A stretch of 49,504 nucleotides of DNA from NCBI GenBank assembly GCA_035531755.1, contig DATKSK010000061.1, positions 1 to 49,504 on the forward strand. Direction: 5' to 3'. Made by a program: the position numbers and the translations under genes. This DNA comes from Acidimicrobiales bacterium (GTDB lineage: Bacteria; Actinomycetota; Acidimicrobiia; Acidimicrobiales; UBA8190). Shown in pieces: positions 6,647 through 46,969 of this stretch (position 1 is the stretch's first letter; each line of letters opens with the position of its first letter). A model generated the notes under the pieces. It worked only from the letters and a program-made list of their open reading frames with translations. It ran no database searches and was not told the DNA's origin.

Positions 6647-7459
6647 GTGCGCGCCGTCGACCAGTGGCGGGTGCGCCCCGGGGAGACCGTGCGCCTCGAC
6701 CGGCGCGACCCGGCGTCTGTCGCCGGCGCTCCCGGCGACAAGACCGCGACCGAGCAGGCCACGCTTCCGCTGCACGAGGAGCTCTTCGGGATCCAGGACC
6801 GTCTGTGGGCCGAGTCGACGCACTCGGTGCTGGTGGTGCTGCAGGGCCTCGACGCGTCGGGGAAGGACGGCACGATCAAGCACGTCTTCCGGGGTGTGAA
6901 CCCCCAGGGCACCAACGTGGCATCGTTCAAGCAACCCACCCCGGAGGAGCAGGCCCACGATTTCCTGTGGCGTGTCCACCGGCGCACGCCCGCCGCGGGC
7001 GAGATCGCCATCTTCAACCGGTCGCACTACGAGGACGTGCTCGTGGTGCGGGTGCACGGCCTCGCGCCGGAGAAGGTGTGGCGGGCCCGCTACGACGAGA
7101 TCAACGCCTTCGAGCGGTTGCTCGCGCGCGGCGGCACCACCACGGTGAAGTTCTTCCTGCACGTCTCCTTCGAGGAGCAGGGTCGGCGGCTCCGGGACCG
7201 CCTGGAGCGGCCGGACAAGCGCTGGAAGGCCCGCGCCGCCGACTTCCTCGAGCGCGGACACTGGGACGCCTACCAGCGGGCCTATACCGAGGCGATCGAG
7301 AAGACCTCGACGGACGTGGCGCCGTGGTACGTCATCCCCGCCGACCACAAGTGGTACCGGAACTGGGCGGTCAGCCAGGTGCTCCTCGCCACGCTCGAGG
7401 AGATGGCCCCGCGCTATCCGGACCCCGCACCGCCCGACCTTCCCGACGGCGTGACCTGA
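6647..7459 (+). CDS. PPK2-family polyphosphate kinase
   Basis: PPK2 enzymes move phosphate between polyphosphate and nucleotides (ADP/GDP or AMP). The Walker A is GLDASGKDGTIKHVFRGVNP, the Walker B region is FNRSHYEDVLVVRVHGL, and the lid has RLERPDKRWK and the WDAYQRAY helix. The single domain is 270 aa, normal for class I or III; the class cannot be fixed by eye. The GTG at 6647 lies 3 nt after the universal stress gene's stop. Ppx (polyphosphate breakdown) is encoded near 46 kb, so both halves of polyphosphate turnover are present. Confidence 0.93.
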   Translation: MRAVDQWRVRPGETVRLDRRDPASVAGAPGDKTATEQATLPLHEELFGIQDRLWAESTHSVLVVLQGLDASGKDGTIKHVFRGVNPQGTNVASFKQPTPEEQAHDFLWRVHRRTPAAGEIAIFNRSHYEDVLVVRVHGLAPEKVWRARYDEINAFERLLARGGTTTVKFFLHVSFEEQGRRLRDRLERPDKRWKARAADFLERGHWDAYQRAYTEAIEKTSTDVAPWYVIPADHKWYRNWAVSQVLLATLEEMAPRYPDPAPPDLPDGVT

Positions 7460-40092: not shown

Positions 40093-45033
<4,941 letters not shown>

Positions 45034-45047
45034 GCCCACCACGGGAC

Positions 45048-46466
45048 ATGGACGCCGACGCCGACCGGGCGGCGGTGGCCCGGCTCCTCGGACGGCCCCC
45101 CTCCGGCGCGTTCTCGGTCGCCGTCAGGCGCCGCGACGGTACTCCCGCCGTCATCGAGAACGACCCCTTCCTCGACGACGGCACGCCCATGCCCACCCGC
45201 TACTGGTTGGTCGACGACGAGCTGCGCGACGCCGTGAGCAGGCTCGAAGCAGCCGGTGGTGTCCGCCGGGCGGAGGCTGCCGTCGATCCTGACGCCGTGG
45301 CCGACGCCCACGCCCGCCACGGTGCCGAGCGCGACCACGCCATCCCGGCGACCCATGCCGGGCCCCGGCCGACGGGCGGTGTCGGTGGCACGCGCCGGGG
45401 GGTGAAGTGCCTCCACGCCCACGTGGCCTGGTATCTCGCCGGTGGGGACGACCCGGTCGGGCGCTGGGCCGCCGGGCAGCTGGGGCTGGATGTCTCGGGC
45501 TATGTGGTGGTGCGGGGTGTGGTGGATGCGCCGCTCGGCCCCGTGGCCGCCGTCGACTGCGGGACCAACTCCACCCGGCTGCTGGTGGTCGGGGCGGACG
45601 GGGCGGTGCTCGACCGGCGGATGCGGATCACGCGGCTCGGCGAGGGGGTCGACGCCACGCACGAGCTGGCGCCCGAGGCCATCGGCCGAAGCCTGGCCGT
45701 GCTCGGGGAGTACCGACAGCTGATGGACCGTCACGGTGTCGTACGCACCCGGGTCGTCGCCACGTCGGCGGCCAGGGACGCCGAGAACGCGCCGGAGTTC
45801 CTGGCGGCGGCGGCCGACGTCATCGGGTGCCGACCGGAGGTGTTGAGCGGTGCCGACGAGGGAGAGCTGTCGTTCACCGGCGCCACCGCGCACCTGCCGG
45901 ACGACATGGTCGACGCCGGCACCGTGCTCGTCGTCGACATCGGGGGAGGATCCACCGAGCTCGTCGTCGGGGACGTCGGGCGGCGGGCGCCGGGCGCCGC
46001 GGTAGCCACGGTCTCGCTCGACATCGGGTGCGTGCGGGTGACGGAGCGGTTCATGCACCACGATCCGCCACTCGGCCACGAGCTGGCCGCTGCCCGTCAG
46101 GCGGTTGACGCCGACGTCGGACGCGCCCGCGCCATGCTGCCCCCATTGTCACCGGGGGCGCCACTGGTCGGGCTGGCCGGGACGGTATCGACGATCGCCG
46201 CGCTCGACCAGGGGCTCACGGACTACGAACGGTCCCGCATTCACCATGCCGTGCTCAGCCGGAGCACGGTCGAGCACTGGCTCGAGGTCCTCGCAGGAGA
46301 GGACAATGCCGCCCGCCTTTCGCGCCCCGGCATGATGGAGGGTCGTGCCGACGTGATCGCGTCCGGCGCGTTGATCCTGGCAGCCGTCATGACCGGCTTC
46401 GACCGGGACGCGTGCCTGGTGTCAGAAGACGACATCCTCGACGGGCTCGCGGCGAGCATCCGCTGA
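45048..46466 (+). CDS. DUF501-Ppx/GppA fusion: exopolyphosphatase
   Basis: 472 aa in one continuous frame. Residues 1-150 match DUF501: FLDDGTPMPTRYWLVDDELR and GVKCLHAHVAWYLAGGDDPV. From about 165 a Ppx/GppA phosphatase follows: VAAVDCGTNSTRLLVVGADG, VVATSAARDAENAPEFLAA, VVDIGGGSTELVVGD and GLAGTVSTIAALDQGLTDYE. Ppx removes phosphate from polyphosphate (or pppGpp). In mycobacteria DUF501 and Ppx are separate neighbours after ftsB-like, so this looks like their fusion. The link is only about 15 residues. The Ppx part (about 307 aa) is the short two-domain form. Confidence 0.92.
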   Translation: MDADADRAAVARLLGRPPSGAFSVAVRRRDGTPAVIENDPFLDDGTPMPTRYWLVDDELRDAVSRLEAAGGVRRAEAAVDPDAVADAHARHGAERDHAIPATHAGPRPTGGVGGTRRGVKCLHAHVAWYLAGGDDPVGRWAAGQLGLDVSGYVVVRGVVDAPLGPVAAVDCGTNSTRLLVVGADGAVLDRRMRITRLGEGVDATHELAPEAIGRSLAVLGEYRQLMDRHGVVRTRVVATSAARDAENAPEFLAAAADVIGCRPEVLSGADEGELSFTGATAHLPDDMVDAGTVLVVDIGGGSTELVVGDVGRRAPGAAVATVSLDIGCVRVTERFMHHDPPLGHELAAARQAVDADVGRARAMLPPLSPGAPLVGLAGTVSTIAALDQGLTDYERSRIHHAVLSRSTVEHWLEVLAGEDNAARLSRPGMMEGRADVIASGALILAAVMTGFDRDACLVSEDDILDGLAASIR

Positions 46467-46555: not shown

Positions 46556-46969
46556 TCAGTGACGGGGTGACAACCGGTCCGAGCCCTCGGAGGGCCGTTC
46601 CGGGGACTGGTCAGCGGCAGCCTCGTCGGGTGTCTTCGGGTCCCTGGCCGTCAAGAGCCCGATCTCCTGGACCAAGGCGATCTGCTTGGCCGACAGCCGG
46701 TCGAGGCTCAAGGCCAGGTGGAAGACGAGGATCATGAGGAACAGGACCGCCAGCAACAAGAGGAATGCGGGCGAGTACGCCACCCCGACGAGGAGCGATA
46801 CGCGATCAATGAGATGAGCCGGAAGGGTTGCGCTCACGACGACCATGAACAGGCTCGCCGACAACCAGAGCATGGCCGTCTGCTCACGAAGGCGCTGGCG
46901 GCGCATGGCGACGACCGAGCCGATGAGGAAGCTCACACTCAACACCATGGCCAGAGCAAACGACTTCAC
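46556..46969 (-). CDS. DUF2304 membrane protein
   Basis: 137 aa. Three hydrophobic segments: SFALAMVLSVSFLIGSVVAM, the tract MLWLSASLFMVVVSATLPAH and YSPAFLLLLAVLFLMILVFH, followed by LSLDRLSAKQIALVQEIGLL, the DUF2304 hallmark, and a charged tail. DUF2304 genes usually follow a glycosyltransferase family 2 gene, as here (16-nt gap), and help lipid-linked sugar synthesis. The GTG at 46969 has a strong AAGGAGG 4 nt away. Composition is lower in GC than the genes at 31-46 kb. Confidence 0.85.
   Translation of the reverse strand: MKSFALAMVLSVSFLIGSVVAMRRQRLREQTAMLWLSASLFMVVVSATLPAHLIDRVSLLVGVAYSPAFLLLLAVLFLMILVFHLALSLDRLSAKQIALVQEIGLLTARDPKTPDEAAADQSPERPSEGSDRLSPRH

Follow-up and report, generated by a model that had tools for sequence, protein, structure and literature searches.

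The window, by which we mean the whole stretch of 49,504 nucleotides analysed here, is contig C61 of a draft genome that measures 3.28 Mb in 77 contigs. It carries the following genes and features:

43016..44317, + strand: eno (enolase), at the head of the conserved eno-ftsB-DUF501-ppx order
44563..45033, + strand: ftsB/DivIC-like membrane protein gene, 156 aa from ATG; the real start may be further upstream
45048..46466, + strand: DUF501-Ppx fusion, one stop-free ORF of 472 aa
45120..45470, + strand: DUF501 domain, residues 25-141 (PF04417, E 7e-24, 84.7 bits against a cut-off of 23.8)
45492..45533, + strand: inter-domain linker, residues 149-162, containing GTG codons in frame, of which the one at 45522 has the best position; drawn from the junction alignment with relatives
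45543..46463, + strand: complete Ppx/GppA domain, residues 166-472, catalytic residues kept

The fusion ORF starts 14 bases past the stop of the ftsB-like gene, which itself lies behind eno. The sequence-only reading had described one 472-residue protein with no stop between its two parts, and this is borne out, as the single ORF contains both Pfam domains. Related loci with eno upstream on the same strand number 53, and an ORF similar to the ftsB-like gene lies upstream of DUF501 in 64 loci; the match of the window's ftsB-like gene to PF04977 (DivIC) is weak and sub-threshold (22.5 bits, E 1e-4, curated cut-off 28.9). The PF04417 match of the DUF501 domain is full-length and above cut-off and includes the KCLH motif. 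The domain holds the invariants R16, P47, E67, G114, K120, C121, H123 and G138, among which R16, E67, K120, C121 and H123 are 100% conserved in 68 aligned rows, and its motif is made up of the invariant E67 plus K120-C121-x-H123. The Ppx part matches PF02541 (Ppx-GppA) over residues 187-461 (E 3e-54, 184.8 bits against a cut-off of 27) and holds the most conserved residues of the family (D170, G172, N174, S175, R177, E271, D297, GGGS 299-302, E304 and R433), so that both phosphate loops and E271 are intact, in agreement with the positions conserved at 90% or more in the 68 aligned rows. The exopolyphosphatase model TIGR03706 scored 204.8 bits on the window protein, below its curated cut-off of 307, and therefore we do not name the domain an exopolyphosphatase. 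A second Ppx/GppA gene, unlinked to DUF501, is present in the same genome (G000:C3:30588-31463), and a PPK2 family match (E 1e-71) occurs at 6740-7411 (+) on the contig of the fusion, some 38 kb away from it. Adjoining the fusion on the opposite strand, a small predicted membrane protein is encoded at 46556-46969 (-), and after it comes a glycosyltransferase-like ORF, both recognized by eye.

Within family f1, to which the window belongs, the genes are split in every relative whose junction allows a judgement, by a stop, by a change of frame or by the two combined; the DUF501 and Ppx ORFs of these relatives mostly overlap or are separated by a few bases, often in different frames, and the window's genome is the only fused one. 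The junction alignment showed that the window is shorter here and that the stop/start region of the f1 relatives is absent. The loss of the stop by a change of one base was considered and is ruled out by this shortening. The fusion in the window genome thus looks young, as judged from the sequences, and on its own it is weak evidence. One might argue that the organism makes no fusion protein at all, either owing to a sequencing or assembly error or because Ppx is translated separately from the internal GTG at 45522; the genome is indeed a draft in 77 contigs, and a GGGG lies just upstream of this GTG, from which some separate Ppx could be made. We consider this explanation very unlikely, since the shorter junction without the stop/start region goes beyond one base, both domains are intact and conserved, and fusions without internal starts occur in other genomes.

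Of the 395 class genomes searched, 13 gave a stop-free match across the whole fusion at E<=1e-100. They belong to seven families of the order, the window's among them, and the count is a minimum, since more distant fusions miss this threshold. In the wider phylum, DUF501 and Ppx are in one ORF in 9 of the 11 sampled genomes of family f79 (in one of the nine, L077, Ppx is frameshifted further downstream), and in the remaining two the frame is disrupted, within DUF501 in L093 and close to the junction in L095. Fusions were also found in f113, f97 and one f82 genome. The check named beforehand, namely whether any relative has the fusion, was thus answered by six other families of the order and by the wider phylum. 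The related claim that the two are separate neighbours in Actinobacteria holds as the usual state, but not as the sole one, as several families have fusions. The linker between the two profile matches measures 0 to 51 aa; the unusually long one of 51 aa belongs to L087, an f97 fusion. In L042 and L082 the linker has no possible start codon, and therefore the fusion is obligate there; in L032, L036, L041 and L044 the sole candidate start codons sit within the end of DUF501. An assembly error alone was rejected as the cause, given that fusions turn up repeatedly and their linkers differ. Within one genus (g249), about 108 nt separate the domains of the split L060 and none those of the fused L062, which may reflect a recent deletion or an assembly effect. 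At three further DUF501 loci (L049, L086 and L091), no Ppx was found directly downstream. In the titles and selected passages of the literature naming DUF501 or Rv1025, we found no DUF501-Ppx fusion described.

In a tree of 105 DUF501+Ppx pairs, with L093 entered as split, the state changed between fused and split at least 12 times, eight of the changes being forced by well supported branches, and the same tree with shuffled labels gave 23 changes. The 26 fused loci among the 105 do not represent a frequency, the sample being non-random with loci returned best first. Such recurrence could be neutral, in that coupled and often overlapping genes occasionally lose the stop by small indels, with little effect beyond co-translation. 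The overlapping or closely spaced genes of split relatives and the single fused genome within f1 fit this, whereas the fusion of most of f79 and the recurrence in many families do not. Moreover, in 64 loci the ftsB-like gene was never joined to DUF501 in a single ORF, which also speaks against neutral joining, but as a control this is weak: the C-terminus of an FtsB-type protein lies outside the cytoplasm, so that topology may forbid the fusion. Full and half Ppx (see below) alike become fused. On balance, we hold neutral read-through to be improbable. The claim that the fusion argues for a shared process is upheld, because recurrent fusion supports DUF501 and Ppx working as one unit.

Family f7, in the same order as the window (G022 and others) and probably Ilumatobacteraceae, presents a further state. 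The partner of DUF501 is here often lobe II of Ppx alone; lobe I and the P-loop DIGGGS are missing, and the Ppx profile aligned only from about position 150 of 299. This half occurs in two arrangements:

L117-L135 (f7), for example L117:1501-2427, - strand: half fusions, DUF501 + lobe II
L136, L138, L139, L141, L143-L146 (f7): separate halves

In 19 f7 genomes, from 10 genera, a single ORF of about 306 aa encodes DUF501 together with the half, and the unfused halves are separate genes just downstream of DUF501. Further f7 genera retain a complete Ppx, fused or split. In a tree of DUF501 + lobe II, a branch with support 100/99 sets all the halves apart, and therefore the halving occurred once, while among the halves the fused/split state switched at least three times. 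On Pfam search, one separate half matched with E 0.059, below the cut-off, and there was no match for another separate half or for the half of P0002.

The residues lost from the half and those kept fall in separate segments. In 28 half sequences, D297 drops from 100% to 18% and R433 from 100% to 4%, and P-loop 2 is lost, with D297 and GGG retained in 18-25% of the halves; also lost are S323, R330, AGT 377-379, H399 and the C-terminal motif. On the other hand, D339, P340, P341, L346, G389, R405, R423, P427 and G428 are retained at 86-100%, in the segments DPPxPxxLTN, ExG, RxxAE and RxxNPGLP. In the two closest genome pairs the half has dN/dS of 0.13 and 0.29 (0.09-0.29 over the closest pairs), and DUF501 is tighter still at 0.07 and 0.05, both being well below 1. 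In the 19 half fusions, R16, P47, T50, E67, H88, R95, G114, K120, C121, H123 and G138 of DUF501 are kept in all and R27 in 18. We considered that the half might retain precisely the residues peculiar to DUF501-linked Ppx, which is not supported: 10 of 29 linked-specific positions are kept at 50% or more, against 6 of 18 family-wide ones, which is no enrichment, and what counts for the argument is that the lobe as a whole has survived. Judging from its sequence, the half, having neither lobe I nor P-loop 2, is not a phosphatase of the Ppx kind. No other Ppx/GppA match at E<=0.001 was found elsewhere in the genome in 17 of 21 half-Ppx genomes, the four with another match being G190, G366, G561 and G597; ppk1 is present in 21 and ppk2 in 20 of these 21, and ppk1 was found in all 32 genomes examined.

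The location of the f7 pair is also different. No eno was present over 15 kb in the five f7 loci examined, and in the two that were annotated (L175 and L177) the DUF501-Ppx pair sits between coxG and an acetyltransferase gene, with a full Ppx in one locus and a half Ppx in the other. Thus, DUF501 and Ppx stay together even apart from ftsB, and the divisome link proposed by the sequence-only reading is left to the gene neighbourhood alone. In the study of C. diphtheriae, which has the ftsB-DUF501-Ppx neighbourhood, a possible division role was likewise inferred from synteny only (PMC10166564).

These results bear on the explanation that DUF501 helps Ppx catalysis, both proteins taking part in the turnover of polyphosphate or pppGpp and possibly doing so at the divisome. 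It is consistent with the catalytic residues kept in the window Ppx, with the frequent eno-ftsB-DUF501-ppx order and with ppk1 in every genome examined. C. glutamicum Ppx2 (Cg1115) was assayed as a polyphosphatase in other work, cited in PMC3411833. The enzyme is reportedly active, so catalysis may matter in some lineages. Against it stand the half-Ppx lineages, which have given up the catalytic part of Ppx, mostly with no other Ppx/GppA match in the genome, and keep DUF501 unchanged together with lobe II, as well as the f7 pair lying away from eno-ftsB. In addition, Rv1026, the Ppx homologue of M. tuberculosis, showed neither polyphosphatase activity nor pppGpp hydrolysis, had a modest ATPase activity that pppGpp inhibits, and still gave no polyphosphatase activity with M. 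smegmatis lysate, so that no activating partner was seen there (PMC3411833). We therefore regard help in catalysis as unlikely. Turnover of polyphosphate or pppGpp and a place at the divisome, as first suggested for the pair, have not been established, and f7 weakens the case for them.

The two domains were modelled together with AlphaFold2; the window fusion scored pLDDT 95.5 and pTM 0.84, and a half fusion pLDDT 96.0 and pTM 0.81. Even if modelled perfectly, the larger domain by itself would yield a pTM of at most about 0.66 (full fusion) and 0.52 (half fusion), which implies a cross-domain term of at least about 0.53 and 0.61, respectively. As the pTM lies above the single-domain ceiling, the models place the domains relative to each other with some confidence and suggest, to that degree, that both domains adopt a fixed arrangement in full and half fusions, which the short linker alone could restrain. 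This conclusion is drawn from the confidence scores of the models. The window model aligned with 3cer_A over 309 residues (Z 44.0, rmsd 2.0), and the half model with 1t6d_B over 153 residues (Z 20.9, rmsd 1.6), the latter indicating the fold of Ppx lobe II. In fold searches with the whole fusion models, the matches were filled by the Ppx part, with no solved relative of DUF501 among them.

According to PMC10166564, DUF501 is essential in C. diphtheriae, and it is reported as essential for C. glutamicum and M. tuberculosis as well. The data above support the view that DUF501 and the linked Ppx work together in a shared process. As an explanation to which we give an even chance, DUF501 and the Rv1026-like Ppx would form one physical unit docked via lobe II, in which DUF501 is indispensable and Ppx is its partner or regulator. 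The actinobacterial DUF501 and the neighbouring Ppx would then be two subunits of one complex, and the joining of their frames in the window organism, and independently in several other lineages, would have fixed a 1:1 complex in one chain. DUF501 would be the indispensable part, its invariant R/E/R/K-C-x-H set possibly forming a ligand or active site, and Ppx may position or regulate it, probably by sensing nucleotide or polyphosphate in its own cleft. In f7, the sensing or catalytic half of Ppx would have been discarded and the docking lobe alone retained. What we infer here is that the two proteins touch in the cell, which of them regulates the other, and what chemistry, if any, DUF501 performs. 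That the half-Ppx still lies beside or on DUF501 suggests that the role of Ppx as a partner goes beyond that of a phosphatase only.

More tentatively, and as a possibility somewhat short of probable, the actinobacterial Rv1026-type Ppx/GppA might be chiefly a docking or regulatory subunit of the essential DUF501 and not a phosphatase, with the fusions and the f7 half-Ppx as stages of the partnership and the half-Ppx as a new kind of Ppx-derived pseudoenzyme. The natural fusions, and the half-Ppx partners most of all, offer a direct route into the function of the essential DUF501, as they indicate the protein to co-purify and the lobe for binding tests. Family f7 is a natural experiment, in which the catalytic half of the partner was lost while DUF501 stayed. 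The partnership may also bear on why neither Ppx nor GppA activity is seen with Rv1026 by itself.

Among known systems, Rv1025 (DUF501) and Rv1026 (Ppx/GppA homologue, next to Rv1025 by gene number) of M. tuberculosis and cgp_1113 and Cg1115 of C. glutamicum have the same two domains as the window, and C. diphtheriae shares its ftsB-DUF501-Ppx gene order. The difference is that the M. tuberculosis and C. glutamicum pairs are separate genes, whereas in the window and several other lineages the domains are in one chain. With the single-unit Ppx/GppA proteins of about 300 aa from Aquifex (1t6c/1t6d) and Bifidobacterium (3cer), the window Ppx shares the complete two-lobe fold and the catalytic residues; in contrast to them, it bears an N-terminal DUF501 and scores below the TIGR03706 cut-off. 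Compared with the PF04417 family, the DUF501 of the window is fused to Ppx, and that of f7 to lobe II alone. The f7 half-Ppx has the lobe II fold in common with Ppx and adjoins or is fused to DUF501, but differs in having neither lobe I nor P-loop 2.
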